Shown one piece after another: positions 7,695 through 54,320 of a DNA stretch of 64,000 bases (position 1 is its first letter; every line of letters begins with the position of its first letter). The stretch is from assembly GCA_016748015.1 (NCBI GenBank), contig JAAOMT010000012.1, positions 124,001 through 188,000 of the forward strand, given 5' to 3'. Below the pieces are notes generated by a model. The model ran no database searches, had not been told where the DNA came from, and worked only from the letters and a program-made list of their open reading frames with translations. Position numbers and translations under genes: made by a program. This DNA comes from Geosiphon pyriformis (lineage: Eukaryota; Glomeromycota; Glomeromycetes; Archaeosporales; Geosiphonaceae).

Positions 7695-9162
7695 ATGGCA
7701 GAATACGAGGAAAGACAGTTAAATGATCCTATTCTTTTGGCGGTAAGGACGCGAAAACTTGAATATTCACCAAGAGTAAAGATTTTTTGAAAAAATTCAA
7801 TACAACGCGTGAAACGTATAATGAAACGAGTAGGCCGAGCTACTGGAAATGGCAAGTCGCCAACTCGCAATGGCTGCAGAGGCGTTCAAATTAGCAGGCC
7901 AAGGTCATGCGTGGGTGTCGCTTTCAGAGCTTCGAAACCACAAAAATAGTAGTGAGAAGGAATCATCTCAAAGGAAACGTCCATTCAAGAGGCCGCAGCA
8001 GCCCTTTTTGATTTTTTGTAATGATATGCGTGTAATTATTAAGAGAAATAATCCAGAATTGGATGACAGATCCGTTATTTCTAAATTATCTAACATTTGG
8101 AGGAACCTAGGAGAGGAAGGAAAAAAGGTGATAGTTTGGTTGGATGATTTCGGTCAAAAATCATTTTTATATTTATGGCTTTATTATTTTTACTTGCTTT
8201 AGAAATACGAAGAACATTATCAACAAAAAATGGCTGAATATCGACAAGAACTGCAGGAAGATAATGAGGGAGCCGAGTCTCATTCTACCATAAAAGCTGT
8301 TGGTACATCTAAGCAACCTGATGATCAGGAATATCAGGAAATAGACGAGAATTCCTTGCCCGTAACACCTCCTGTCACCTTTAATAAATCTAATGAAATT
8401 AATCTTGGTTCTCCGGTACTTCCTATTTCTAAGAACGGCTCGTCGCAAAACCTTTCATTGAAGGGACAGGGGGAAGAAGAAGAAGACTCTCTTACCAATG
8501 AAGATGCTATTGGTGAACCAGATGGCGAATACGAAGGTCAACCTTCACCTTTAGATGATGGTGATGATAATTTAGATAAAAAATATCAAGCAAAAAAAAA
8601 GACTCGAGTAAATCAGCAGAAACATCAACCGCAATCACAAGTGAATTCGCAACCTCCATCTACGCCTCAAAGACTGACCAAAACTTCTTTAATGAAAAGT
8701 AGAGTTGGCTCATCCACACCAAGATCTCTTCAAAATTCTTTAGTGGATATCGAATCAAACCCATCATCAATAAGAGCCTCTAAAATTTTTAAAGAGGTAG
8801 GAGCGGGCTCTTCACCACTCAAGACTCTTAAGAAGTCTGCAGAAACAGTAGCAAGGAGCTCATTATTCCCAAGTCCTTTTGAGATTTCAGCATCGACTCC
8901 CAACAGATCTCCAACAACAAGGATGACGACGACGACAACACCATTAAGTGCTAAATCAGATTTTAAAGATAAGCCAATATCTAATGAAGAAAAGAAAAGG
9001 TTAAAGCAGGAACGGAGAGATCGAAAAAAGAGACGAAAGCTAGAAAAGGAGCAGAAACAGGGCTTATCTGGTCAATTTGAAAGTTCAAACGAGAATGAGG
9101 TCAACAAAGAGCCAAAGAAGAAAAACATTAAAAATCGGAGGGAAAAGGAAGATAATTATTAA
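7695..9162 (+). CDS. HMG-box chromatin protein, three exons
   Basis: Predicted nuclear DNA-binding protein of about 433 residues with one HMG box. Exons 7695-7742, 7834-8127 and 8203-9162 join in phase 0. Intron 1 has a GTAAGG donor and a TAG acceptor; intron 2 interrupts the HMG box. The box (about residues 66-137) starts KRPQQPFLIFCND and ends GKKKYEEHYQQKM after splicing, with the expected aromatic residues (F in PFLIF, W in SNIWRNLG, Y in KYEEHY). Upstream is a short alanine-rich helical segment (AELLEMASRQLAMAAEAFK). The C-terminal half is acidic, Ser/Pro-rich and apparently disordered, then ends in a strongly basic region (EEKKRLKQERRDRKKRRK). It could be an Nhp10-like INO80 subunit or another HMGB-type factor; the sequence does not decide. 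The start choice rests on the in-frame splice. Confidence 0.82.
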
Positions 9163-13986: not shown

Positions 13987-14711
13987 ATGGACAATTTTCT
14001 ACCCGGACAAATATTTACAACTTCGGCCAGTCTGGTGGATAGCGTTGACAGTATAGTATTTATTTCTTCACTCAATTTCCTTTCTATTCTCAGTCTGCAG
14101 TAGTCTTTAAATAAAGAGACTTTTACTAACTTTTCAGTTTGCTCATTTTTCATTATCTTCTCTTTGATTCATTTTTAGGAAAGGTTTTGGTAGTTCTTCG
14201 TGACGGTAGAAAACTTATTGGAGTGTTAAGATCTTTTGATCAATTTGGTAAAATACAACGTTCATGAAGCCCGCTTTTTCATAATCTCAATTAATTTGCG
14301 ACGTGGTTTCAACTCGCAAACAAATTTGTTCTCAAAAATTAGCAAATTTGGTATTACAAGATACCATAGAGCGAATTTATGTTGGTGATGCATATGGTGA
14401 TATTCCACGAGGAGTGTTTATTATAAGAGGGGAGAACGTTGTTCTTTTGGGAGAAATTGTAAGCCTTTTGGCACTTGTTTCTTTTTCTCATCTCTGATTC
14501 ATTGGCTATTTTCTATCGTTGCTTTTGGACTTTTGCCCATAAGGATTTGGATAAAGAAGATGATTTACCGCTAAGACAAAGACCTGTAGAAGAAATTCTA
14601 TTAGCCCAGCGAGAAGAGATGGAGGCGCGACAGAAGCGTGAAAAACTGAAGAACAAGCTTTTACACGATCAAGGATTTAGTGTTGATTTTACCGAAACAG
14701 ATTTGTATTGA
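13987..14711 (+). CDS. LSM1: LSm1, subunit of the cytoplasmic Lsm1-7 mRNA decay ring, four exons
   Basis: Lsm1 defines the Lsm1-7-Pat1 complex that binds oligoadenylated mRNA 3' ends and promotes decapping in the cytoplasm. Exons 13987-14050, 14179-14247, 14343-14458 and 14544-14711 join in phase to 138 residues (human 133). The Sm1 motif reads [27 protein letters not shown] and the Sm2 motif [15 protein letters not shown]-like ([13 protein letters not shown]). The charged C-terminal tail ([19 protein letters not shown]) is typical of LSm1 and separates it from LSm8. Exon 1 ends at an A/GTATAG donor chosen because it restores the SLVDSVDRKVLV join. It lies 288 bp downstream of homocitrate synthase on the same strand and converges with SPO11. 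Confidence 0.93.
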
Positions 14712-14887: not shown

Positions 14888-17162
14888 TCAAAGCCATCCC
14901 GAGGGAATTTCTACTTTCTTCAGCAAATATTCTAACAGATTATCAGAAACTCCAGTGCAAAGACATTGTATTTCCGCTTTCTTGCCTGCGATCAAGATAC
15001 GAGAAAGCTCATGCCTTTTGAGATATCATTATTTATTAGACCAAAAGTTAGTAAGCGGATCAGATAATTGTTATTATTACATCCAGGAATTTTTTTATTA
15101 CCTCCATTCTTCCTTGAAATAGTCACGTCGAAGCAAGCTTAAAGCCTTCTTGTGATCAGCATACGTAATTGGTAATAAATCGTTCATGGAAATATTGAAT
15201 CTGAAGGAGGAAAAGATTTTGGACCTTATCCATTGTATTCTTTGCTCGATGCAATCAAAATGTTATTTATAAATACCTGCGCCAGTCGTGACAATGTACT
15301 CCAAGCCACTGTACATCGGGCGTTGCGAGGTTTTCGTTATCGAATGACATTGACTAAAGAGTTTAAAATTAGATTCACAAGCCTCAACGCCATGTTGAGA
15401 TGTAAATCAGCACTTACCGTCGATCCACATCTGTATACGCTAAAAATGTCTATTCCTAGTAACCCATTTTATGAAGAAAATCATTTTAGAAAATAGAATG
15501 GCTAAGTGGGCTGAAAAGTCATATATTACCATAAGGATCATTATCGAATAAACCTAAAATTGGGATGCTTGTTTGACCGGCATAACCATGATCAATTTTC
15601 TTCCAATTGGGTGGGTTTCTTTTGATTTGATCCGCAATGAGTTTAACTAATTGGCGTGTTGCCAAATCCTTTGTATCAAGGGTATATTAATGGCCATAGT
15701 AAATTCATATAATATAACATGCCAACTTACTGGATAGCCTTTACCCTAAGAAAGTGTATGTTACACTTAATAGTTTCCCTAAACAACACATCTTATATGG
15801 AAAGAAAACAAACCGTGATCATTATGCAAGCACCAAGCATTTGAAATATTTCATTTGAAAGCATATATTGAAATGTGGCCTGTTGAAATGAAAAAAGTGT
15901 TATTTGGCACCCAAAAATAGCTTAGGTAAAAGTTGAGATTTAATACTACCTCTTTTTCAATAATAAATACAAACTTGACTTGGCTAGAAATTTCGATTCG
16001 TTTTTTATTAATATTAAATAAGAATTTAAATAATTTAAAAAGAATAAGCTAAATAGCCGTCAAAAAAGGATATTATTGATTAGCTCCAGTGTTGGAATTA
16101 AGGTCCCCTTCAATTTTTGAATTGGTTTTGGGGTGGCAAATATTAGTTCAAAATACAATTGAAAGGTAAAAATTGCTTTTTTTTTTTAATGAAAAAATTC
16201 ATGCTTGAATCATTGCCTGATAGTTAATGGGCGAGCAATCAAGAATTGTCCCGTCCTTCTGTATAATCTTGAGTTCTCCAGCTACCAAGCCCTTCGCTGA
16301 AGCTGTCTATAAAAGTATATTATTAAAATTTTAATAGTGAGTCAATAAATTGTGGTTCAATTGGGAAATTTCAACTTACAACGTTCAAACAATAACGGGG
16401 TACTTGAAAAAGACATGCTAATTCGTCGATTCCCTAAAAAAAAAACAGATAAAAAGGGTACTTTTCTTTGGAATTATGTGGTATTTTTTTTTCTTACTAT
16501 GTCAACTGTATGTTGAGTTCCGAATAATTGGACGTCTTTGTAATAAATATCACTAGTGGTGAAAAGAAAAATCATAAATTTTCCTTTGGCAAGTTAGAAT
16601 TCTAATTGGTAGTCTATGTGAAAAAAACCGTTTTGTAGCTGTCGTGTTCTGCACCAAAAGCTCATGAATAATCTCCAAGAGTCTGATAATAACTGCGAAA
16701 CTGTGAGGATTCTTTGACGAAAGAAAATTCAAATGTTTCGACGCGACTAAATGGTTTCTCCTTAGTGTACCAGTCTGTGAATCATAACTATTAAATTTGT
16801 ATGAAACAAAAAAAATTAAAAAATGAGACTGAGGTGTTTAAGCATAATTTTTGCTTATTTGATTTTCTCGTACCGAGTGTACATGTATTTCCTCGCTAGT
16901 GCGTTTGAAACTGTTTTTATTATTAGAGGATTACCATTTGCAAGATCATGTAAGAGTTTTTCTATGATCGATTCGATTTTTAAAATTACCCAGGTTCTAT
17001 GAGGAAAAACCAAAAAAAAAAAATTTTAAATTTTAAATTTTTTGCTCCAAAAATTTCTATCAGCTTTCTTTGCCTTGGTCGAAAACTAGTTTTGATAAAT
17101 TCCATCGCAGGAGGAATAATATTGACTTCATCTTGGTCTTGAACGGTTATCGGAACTTCCAT
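14888..17162 (-). CDS. SPO11: SPO11, meiotic topoisomerase VI-A-like protein, fifteen exons
   Basis: Makes the programmed double-strand breaks that start meiotic recombination. Exons: 17162-17074, 16996-16874, 16787-16629, 16552-16498, 16433-16380, 16306-16217, 16107-16074, 15999-15950, 15879-15814, 15745-15731, 15668-15530, 15455-15418, 15353-15277, 15200-15102, 15014-14888. All phases agree and give 404 residues (human 396). The 5Y-CAP winged-helix region carries KRDIYYKDVQLFG with the tandem catalytic tyrosines (Y127/Y128). The Toprim domain carries FIIEKEATFQYML (glutamate E216) and LGLFDNDPYG (metal-binding D287, D289). The end, KKAEIQCLCTG onward, matches the usual SPO11 C-terminus. Introns 1 and 6 appear to use GC donors, intron 7 is AT-AC, and exon 10 is 15 nt. 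Exon 1 is the least certain. All catalytic residues are present, so the gene looks functional. Confidence 0.92.
16000..16073 (-). other. SPO11: Putative U12-type AT-AC intron of SPO11
   Basis: On the minus strand this 74-bp intron begins ATATCCTTTT, the U12-type 5' splice-site consensus, and ends AAAAAAC. There is no GT or GC donor within reach that gives an open frame. Using the AT-AC borders joins LIN to RIEISSQVKF through an A/GA codon and keeps the conserved alignment from GTLIPT to FIIEKEATF. The segment TTCTTA, 19 nt before the 3' end, is a possible but imperfect branch site. Confidence 0.75.
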
Positions 17163-42054: not shown

Positions 42055-44514
42055 CTATTGTGCACGACAAATAGAACAATAAACATCACGAACAAAATGT
42101 CTCGAATTTTCAGAAACAATATTACTATTAGCTGACAAGTAGTGCTTACTCAAGCAAGAGAGAAAATACCAATTGGAAAGAGAAGCAGCACCAGCGATTG
42201 CATCAGCACGCTCATTTCCCAAAACACCAGAATGACCTTTTATCTTGTGAAAGCTAACCCTTAACTTCTTACTGTGAATCACATTGACAATATGATGACA
42301 TTTGACCCAACACTGATTACGATAATTAGGATACACCAGACCCAACTCTGACCTGCAAGCATCCAAAGCCGATTGACTATCTGAGAACAAACAAACAGAG
42401 CTTGATAAGGGAACACACTCCAGAGCCAAGGCGACAGTCTGCAATTCCATCAAAGTAGACGACATCAAATCCAACACACTAACGCCCAAACCCAAACCAA
42501 TGTCCTCAAAAAAAACAGCAGCACCAGCTCTACAGCCAACTATGCCAAGATTACTAAGGGACCTATCCATATATACTGACAGGCTGCTAGCACCAGTTGC
42601 CAAGAGATGATTACAAACAGACACAAATTCACCAAACTCAAGAATGTTCGAAGGACTACCATCACCCAAAACTAAAGACTGAGTGTGAGAAGATCCCATA
42701 CTATTAAGAAACAAAACAGAATGCTTAAACCACTCAGGAACTGGGCCACAGGGGTCCAATCTCTTCCACCACTTGAAAGTGTACCAATTATAAACAGCAC
42801 CATGACGGTTACGAAATTGATCCACAAAGGCAATACCATACCACCGAAGGGAAGAGAGAAACCTAAGAAACCTTGACTCGCCCAGAACTTCAAACATAGG
42901 CACTTCACTATGAGACCAAAAGAAACTAACTAAAGAGCCATCCAGAGACACATTGCAATTGAAAAGAACATGAACCATGCTTACCAGAAAGTTATTAGAT
43001 GCACTAACACGAATACAAACAGGAAAACTCAACAGATGAACAGGGTGCCAACACAGAACTTGCAAGTCATGAAACCTGTGAGAAAACAAACAACCCAAGA
43101 TACTACCAGAGTTCACAAAACTGACAAGAAAAGCAATCTTGCTCTCAATTTGAACTTGAAAAAATGACTTTAAACCATAAAATGAAGGGTGATAAATTGC
43201 ATCATTAGGGAAATTGAGCAGCAAACCAGACTTAAGCTTCAAACCTTTATGAATCAGAGCATCCCACTTGTTGCACATGCCAACAAGAATAAAACTGAAC
43301 TGAGTTCTATAGCTGACTATTGGATGCAGAACTGCCAACACCAAATACAAGAACTGTTTATCTGAAATCGCCTTCCTCAATACCAGATTGGTGAAAAAGC
43401 GAATGTCCGAATGCGTCTTAACCAAGCTAGACTTCGAAAGACCCTCAGTCGATAGAAAAATGCCCAGATATCGGTGAGATTCCCCTTTTTTGGCAATAGA
43501 AATGGGTGAACCGCTAATAGAAAGAGAGGGATTGCTAACTCTACTATTGATAGGAATGGCTACCATTTTGTCATTATTAATAGAGATGTCATTGACATGA
43601 AAAAATTCACTAGCAACATTGAAAATATGTTGAGTAGCTGTCTGACTACTGCCAACCCAAATTGTGTCATCAACAAAAGCACCAGTGGCAAAAAAAGAAG
43701 AAAACCCAGTCTGAGATTCGGAACGACCATTCTTAGAAACAAAGTGAGAATTCAACCTATACCCACATACACTCTTCTGTCTTTTGACTTCACACAAAAA
43801 AGGATCATAAAATATGCACCAGAAAAGAGGAAAAAAGACTTCTCCCTGGTCCAAACCATTGTGCACATGATAACCACTTGTTAATCCAAAATCAGTTATG
43901 ACTCGGTTGGTATGATTCCTATAAATACTACCAAAAAACCGAATAAATTTGCTACACATCTTAATCCTGACCAAATTCTTTTCGAGATGCTCCCAGCCAA
44001 CTGAGTCATACGCCTTTCTCATGTCCTGTAGAACTAGCCAGAGCTCACTGTTTTTTTCCAAAGCATCTTCGACCACCAAACCAATTGCAAAAATAGGAGA
44101 CTGGGTTGTTGTACCCTTCAGAACCAAAAAATTGGCCCCCCAAAACACGTCAAAAGTACTGCATGCCAAAGAAATCCTGTCAGAGAGGATCTTGGAAAGA
44201 ATTTTGCAAGCTGTTTCAATTAAGGCAATAAGACATATGTTCATCAAAACACCTTCCCACTTATAAGATTTGAGAATCATTGCAACCCATGCTTCCTTCC
44301 AAGGGCCAGGCACTAATTCACTAGACAAACAAGAATTCAAGAGCACCAACAACATATCTAAAACTGACCTATCACAATGTTTCCAAAGCTCATTTGAAAT
44401 ACCTAACAAACCAGCTGCTTTACCATTTAGAAGATCAGAAACCACCCCAAGGAACTCATCATATTCAATCAAACACATGACACCAGAAAAAGCTTCATCA
44501 AAAACATACTCCAA
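42055..44514 (-). pseudogene. LINE ORF2 segment: reverse transcriptase and RNase H
   Basis: An uninterrupted frame of 819 codons. RT motifs are visible: AYDSVGWEHL (motif A Asp), NGLDQGEVFFPLFW (motif B) and AFVDDTIWVGSS (motif C, with both Asp retained, near 43,665-43,690). A C-terminal RNase H domain follows with VYMDRSLSN (first Asp), the acidic residue in LMELQTVALALE, SDSQSALDA and KIKGHSGVLGNERADAIAGAA. The reading frame is cut off from its N-terminal part by two stops just upstream, so it is not expected to give a complete ORF2 protein, although the RT-RH part itself looks catalytically intact. Confidence 0.88.
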
Positions 44515-52999: not shown

Positions 53000-54320
53000 A
53001 AAATGAGTTTGGACACACTGACATTGTGAAGCATCAGATTGATACAGGAGACACTCGACTGATTAAGCAATGAGCTTACCGTGTACCCCCATTTGACAAT
53101 AACCTAATTAAGCAAGAAATGCAACGGATGCTTGATAACGGCCTAATTAAAGAATTATTAAGCCCTTGGTCCTCTCCAGTAGTCTTGGTTACCAAGAAAA
53201 ATGGAAAAGTGCAATTCTGCGTAGATTATCAAAAACTAAATAGCATCACGCGAGAAGATAGTTATCCCACTCCCCTCATCCAGGAAATTCTGGGCAATCT
53301 AGGAAAAAAAAAATGGTTCTCATTATTAGATTTAGCAAGTGGTTACTGGCAAGTTGAAATAGACCCCAAAGACAAAGAAAAAACAGCGTTTACCACTCAA
53401 GATAGAAACTTCAAGTTTAACATAATGCCTTTTGGACTTTGTAATGCTTCTGCCACATTTCAATGTCTGATAGATGTAGTATACAAAGGAATCCTTTGGA
53501 AATCAGTAGTAGTCTACCTAAATAACACAAACATATTCTCCGAAACATTCAATGACCATCTGCTCCACCTGCAACAAGTCTTCGAATGCTTTCGTAGTGC
53601 TGGATTGAAACTCAATCCCAAGAAGTGCTTCTTTGGAAAAACCGAGTTAAAATTCCTAAGACATGTAATTGGCAAGGACGGAGTTAAATCCGATCCAAAT
53701 AAAGTACAAAAAGTCAAGGATTTTCTAGTCCCAATCAACCTCAAAGAATTACGAAGATTTCTAGAATTGGCAAGATATTATTGTCAATTTGTCAAAGATT
53801 TCTCGAACATCACAAAACCACTTCATCAATTGTTGTCCAAATATGTACTGTACTTGTGGAAGGAAGATTAACAGAAAGCATTCGACTATCTCAAGCAGCA
53901 ATTGATCACATCTTCAATCCTGATTTATCCAGATTTCACTAAATGGTTCATTGTCACTACGGACACCTCGAAAAATGCTCTAGGAGCAGTCTTATTACAG
54001 ATAGGACTGGACAATAGAAAACACCCAGTTGCCTACACTAGTCGCAGTACCAGCCCAGCAGAAAAGAATTACAGCACAACAGATCTGGAATGTCTCGCCA
54101 TTTATTGGGCCATACAGACTTGGAAACATTACCTCAGTTAACCATTTGACCTATATACCAACCACAAAGGACTTATTTGGTTACTTAACAATCCACAACT
54201 AGAAGGAAAATATGCAATATGGAGTACTTATCTGCAACAATTCCCACTCAAAGTCGATTACAAGGAAGGATCCAAGAACACCAATGCCGACAGTTTGTCA
54301 AGGATGCCACAAACCTAATC
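53000..54320 (+). pseudogene. Gypsy reverse transcriptase and RNase H, catalytic site lost
   Basis: RT spans about 53,080-53,750: SPWSSPVVLVTKKNGKVQFC, SLLDLASGYWQVEI (motif A), IMPFGLCNASATFQ (motif B) and VVYLNNTNIFS, where the YxDD box reads YLNN (53,514-53,525), both Asp changed to Asn. RNase H follows with VTTDTSKNALGAVL and AEKNYSTTDLECLAI, then YTNHKGLIWLL. TGA at 53,071, TAA at 53,869 and TAA at 54,139 interrupt the frame. The link region HQLLSKYVLYLWKED is typical of Ty3/gypsy RT. Confidence 0.93.

Follow-up and report, generated by a model that had tools for sequence, protein, structure and literature searches.

The genome of Rhizophagus irregularis is described in the main text of Larue and Roy 2023 (PMC10639083) as carrying U11, U12, U4atac and U6atac, minor-spliceosome proteins and 205 predicted minor introns, among which phase 1 is the commonest. 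Going by that text, such machinery in a glomeromycete is therefore not new; the likeness to the Geosiphon pyriformis genome analyzed here lies in candidate counterparts of these components, and the SPO11 intron that we describe below is also of phase 1. SPO11 itself has no mention in the main text of that paper (PMC10639083). A second point of comparison is CENATAC, which the main text of PMC8280824 presents as a human factor for AT-AN (A-type) introns from work on patients and depleted cells, with fungi unmentioned there; the likeness consists of the AT-AC termini of the SPO11 intron and of a CENATAC-like gene in the Geosiphon genome. As for the host gene, Spo11 was not found in the gene repertoire of Gigaspora rosea, a result that the authors, in the excerpted text of PMC4771724, blame on incompleteness or low expression. 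Our literature search, carried out at the level of listings, found no published description of an AT-AC intron in SPO11. The intron reported here is a credible new case of a phenomenon for which an arbuscular mycorrhizal fungus provides a published precedent.

The Geosiphon SPO11 gene lies in the window (the whole 64-kb stretch of DNA that was analyzed), where the gene and the segments on both sides of the intron were modelled as follows:

Positions 14888-16989, minus strand: SPO11 gene, with 14 modelled exons and 13 introns (11 GT-AG, one GC-AG, one AT-AC)
Positions 16108-16216, minus strand: upstream neighbour intron, GC-AG, phase 0, 109 nt
Positions 16074-16107, minus strand: 34-nt exon encoding GTLIPTLELIN plus one base, directly upstream of the AT-AC intron
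Positions 16000-16073, minus strand: putative U12-type AT-AC intron, 74 nt, phase 1, with donor ATATCCTTTT and acceptor AAAAAC
Positions 15950-15999, minus strand: downstream exon (IEISSQVKFVFIIEKE), which carries the EKE of the Toprim part

The model ends at a stop codon at 14,888 and begins at an arbitrary start at 16,989, the N-terminal exon(s) upstream of 16,989 lying outside it, and its 13 introns range from 62 to 109 nt. The joined protein of 372 residues scored above the cut-off for both Pfam domains (81.9 bits for TP6A_N and 149.2 bits for TOP6A-Spo11_Toprim), contained the YY, EKE and DND motifs, which have catalytic roles, and matched five PDB chains of Topo VI-A/Spo11 in phmmer comparisons (2zbk, 1d3y, 8urq, 2q2e and 9o0g). 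Its likeness to the Topo VI-A/SPO11 family (PDB 8urq, 2zbk and 1d3y) thus comprises both Pfam domains, the three motifs and an alignment that spans the junction, whereas introns are a property of the gene rather than of the protein family. When run against the genome, the PF04406 profile gave zero matches, probably because the domain is split among exons, and a PDB search with a single SPO11 exon returned chance-level matches only. No relatives of SPO11 were confirmed in prokaryote genome contigs or in viral contigs. Elsewhere in the window, an HMG-box gene (7849-8202, plus strand, 39.2 bits) is located ~6.7 kb away from the SPO11 3' end, an LSM-domain exon on the opposite strand (14285-14497, plus) adjoins that end, and two reverse-transcriptase ORFs are found at 42055-44514 (minus strand, also with RNase H) and 53119-53871 (plus strand).

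Because the intron at 16108-16216 is GC-AG, the 34-nt exon has introns with non-GT donors on both sides, and two such adjoining introns are what one might see if a sequence error or a decayed gene had left no intron, or a broken allele, at this place. We consider such an origin very improbable: i) joining the 14 modelled exons gives a single stop-free reading frame with YY, EKE and DND present; ii) a perfect U12 donor at an exon end is improbable as an error; iii) no second copy of SPO11 was found in a search of the 124.7-Mb assembly, which returned 13 rows, 11 of them at SPO11 and the other two with E > 0.5.

In favor of a U12-type AT-AC intron, the donor at 16,073 and the AC at 16,001-16,000 (minus strand), which the first-pass annotation had given as the intron borders, were confirmed in both coordinates and sequence. 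The minus-strand junction context, with slashes at the borders and the intron running from 16,073 to 16,000, is CTAATCAATA/ATATCCTTTT...AATAAAAAAC/GAATCGAAAT, and its splicing signals are:

Positions 16064-16073, minus strand: U12-type 5' splice site ATATCCTTTT, which fits the U12 donor criterion ATATCCTT
Positions 16013-16021, minus strand: candidate branch site TTATTTAAT, matching TTCCTTRAY at 7 of 9 positions, with 14 nt from its A to the intron end
Positions 16000-16001, minus strand: AC 3' splice site, in the form AAC, which is weaker than YAC

The 3' end of U12-type AT-AC introns is usually YAC, and their branch site is expected ~10-20 nt ahead of it. On both strands of the 64-kb window the motif RTATCCTTT has a single copy, located at the SPO11 donor, and the chance of a U12 donor motif is ~1.5e-5 to 2.1e-5 per position. 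Since shuffled windows held 2.76 copies on average, and 93 of 100 shuffles held at least one, the motif in itself is not rare; the telling point is that its lone copy sits at the exon end which homology demands. The same annotation had also claimed that the exon offers neither a GT nor a GC donor. The first half of this claim stood, as no GT dinucleotide occurs between 16,130 and 15,980 on the minus strand, and the second half did not, as the exon contains a GC at 16,084 (in a context that is poor relative to the donor consensus).

The other intron signals discriminate less. A branch match of at least 7/9 was reached by chance in 11% of random sequences and in 16% of shuffled versions of the intron itself, which makes TTATTTAAT a weak signal, and one of the other 12 introns of SPO11 also reaches 7/9. 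The donor 9-mer can pair with the 5' end of the genome's U11 and with U6atac; U11 pairing energy was rejected as a discriminator, with 1652 of the 127,982 9-mers of the window pairing equally well or better. Pairing of U12 with the region from 16,025 (-7.1 kcal/mol) was likewise set aside as a signal, since the region near 16,049 (-7.2 kcal/mol) and the donor itself (-7.3 kcal/mol), both in the same stretch, pair equally well.

Choice of the exact borders was addressed by scoring the 826 stop-free, phase-compatible junctions against four homologue fragments. Recognized termini were present in eight of them (two AT-AC, five AT-AG and one GC-AG), so that the AC at 16,001-16,000 is not, as had been asserted, the only phase-compatible end. 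Both AT-AC junctions use the AC at 16,000, and their scores were the top ones among the eight: the summed junction score was 109 for donor 16,076, which lacks a U12 donor motif, versus 106 for donor 16,073, the only one of the pair to have it, while against the fragment of 2zbk (the closest homologue) donor 16,073 scored 58.5 and donor 16,076 scored 50.5. With termini ignored, the 16,073/16,000 junction ranked 47th of the 826 by protein fit; thus protein fit alone backs the region of the junction and not its exact bases.

At full length, four splicings were compared by their phmmer bits against 2zbk, 1d3y, the meiosis-specific SPO11 8urq, 2q2e and 9o0g (in this order): AT-AC splicing reached 93, 54.1, 50.4, 31.3 and 30; AT-AG splicing 86.7, 49.1, 47.5, 28.7 and 27.3; GC-AG splicing 83.1, 46.4, 46.7, 27.4 and 26.1; and skipping of the 34-nt exon 80.9, 40.5, 47.9, 27.9 and 26.6. 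AT-AC splicing therefore outscored its three rivals against all five PDB homologues. Moreover its alignment to 2zbk (Topo VI-A) was gap-free across the junction (iptlelinrieiss over eptpdlidfidvda), which bears out the earlier statement that this splice rebuilds the SPO11 alignment.

Under exon skipping, the major spliceosome would remove one long GC-AG intron (16,216-15,974) and SPO11 would be 20 residues shorter. The GC donor of the upstream intron and an in-phase AG at 15,974 speak for it, and the Pfam score was uninformative as an arbiter (149.5 bits with the exon skipped versus 149.2 bits for AT-AC splicing). However, skipping lowers the score by 12.1 bits for 2zbk, by 13.6 for 1d3y and by 2.5 to 3.4 for the remaining three chains, and it deletes residues that are aligned with Topo VI-A immediately ahead of the Toprim strand; we give it very little probability. 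The least probable of the alternatives that we weighed is a splice to a downstream AG, either AT-AG from the same donor to 15,979 or GC-AG from 16,084 to 15,984. Both are phase-compatible, and AT-AN minor introns are documented in the main text of PMC8280824, but both scored lower against all five homologues and their proteins are shorter, by 7 (AT-AG) and 9 (GC-AG) residues.

Given a U12-type AT-AC intron, full-length SPO11 would need minor splicing, since the unspliced frame hits a TGA inside the intron. The first-pass annotation had taken the intron to imply a minor spliceosome in this fungus, and searches of the genome for its RNAs and proteins agreed with this. Candidates were obtained for all four minor snRNAs: U11 (80.9 bits), U6atac (70.9 bits) and U12 (55.1 bits, just above the gathering score of 53) had one match each above the Rfam gathering score, while the U4atac candidate (43.7 bits) fell below its gathering score of 53. 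Among the 14 prokaryote genomes that served as controls, U11, U12, U4atac and U6atac gave nothing above the gathering score. For the U4atac candidate and U6atac, the predicted duplex has an energy of -32.6 kcal/mol, with one unpaired base in the first 16 pairs and more pairs after a loop, and this extensive pairing makes the U4atac call credible despite its sub-gathering score; the candidate also has a 3' AAUUUUUGG, which we take to resemble an Sm site.

On the protein side, contig C355 holds a CCDC84/CENATAC-like gene in four collinear stretches. The top one scored 38.8 bits against a cut-off of 25.3; three pass the cut-off singly and the fourth together with its neighbours, and none of the 14 control genomes passed for this family. 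A zf-U11-48K finger was also found (27.3 bits, cut-off 21.1); it carries less weight, since one of the 14 controls passed the same cut-off. This finger also occurs in other proteins. Some components of the minor spliceosome are therefore predicted to be encoded in this genome.

Genome-wide, raw counts of U12-like patterns were rejected as evidence, because a reversed control gives about as many: the strict AT-AC pattern was found at three places versus two in the control, and the relaxed one in 26 rows versus 31. Only the strict GT-AG pattern exceeded its control (two matches versus zero), and no coding junction was readable within the 150-nt flanks of these matches. With the intron removed, the frame was open across the junction at each of the three strict AT-AC places. 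The first is in MIOS (Pfam MIOS_WD40, 66.4 bits), with a matched segment that runs across the junction. At the second, which resembles a calcium channel, EF-hand matches stayed under the cut-off; the third resembles NRDE2 and has no family match over the Pfam cut-off.

For the relaxed pattern we counted 17 distinct donors, excluded five that were repeat-like and inspected the other 12 with one intron end each. Two were common to the strict set, one fell in an XPG_N gene, one was VAC14-like and eight were others. Removal of the AT-AC intron rebuilt XPG_N at 106.9 bits, with a match that spans the junction. The junction of the donor whose gene resembles VAC14 was open, with no family match over the cut-off. 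At the remaining eight donors no coding junction was convincing; L032, which is among these eight, was open and had no family match. The loci with readable junctions are:

Locus L039, positions 1501-1574 on its reverse complement: XPG/RAD2-like gene with an AT-AC intron between ELAI and DASIWL
Loci L015, L016, L017 and L027: AT-AC candidates whose coding junctions are open, in genes that are MIOS (by Pfam), EF-hand and calcium-channel-like, NRDE2-like and VAC14-like

AT-AC introns in conserved genes, as predicted from these junctions, are thus present in the genome, and pattern counts alone are insufficient to show them. The five excluded donors, on contigs C7, C212 (two places), C323 and C357, belong to a repeat that looks like a U12 intron core (ATATCCTT...TATCCTTRACAT) and is possibly a mobile element.

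This locus is very likely best explained by a U12-type AT-AC intron within SPO11, as the first-pass annotation put forward, and the candidate minor snRNAs, the CENATAC-like gene and homology support that reading. The explanation is based on sequence, reading frame, homology, candidate machinery genes and the AT-AC introns in other conserved genes, and from these we infer that the splicing happens. The intron would interrupt SPO11 between its winged-helix and Toprim parts. The sequence AUAUCCUUUU at the start of the intron would be base-paired first with U11 and next with U6atac, the order of snRNA action generally known for minor splicing. U12 would pair with the degenerate branch region ~14-19 nt from the intron end, where the putative branch nucleotide would be the A at 16,014 or the A at 16,019. 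The minor spliceosome, probably aided by the CENATAC orthologue, would then join AATA to GAATCG, and this joining would restore the codon AGA and the reading frame.

Any effect on meiosis we likewise infer. It is conceivable, and in our view unlikely, that SPO11 has kept an ancient A-type minor intron through which the initiation of meiotic recombination relies on CENATAC and on minor splicing, so that the efficiency of minor splicing would gate meiosis in a lineage long thought asexual. Gene predictors that take all introns to be GT-AG or GC-AG would disrupt the SPO11 model given here. Through the predicted AT-AC intron, minor splicing is linked to a central gene of meiosis, in a fungus for whose presumed relatives cryptic sexuality is under debate. 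The single junction of this intron would offer a readout of A-type minor splicing as well as of SPO11 expression.
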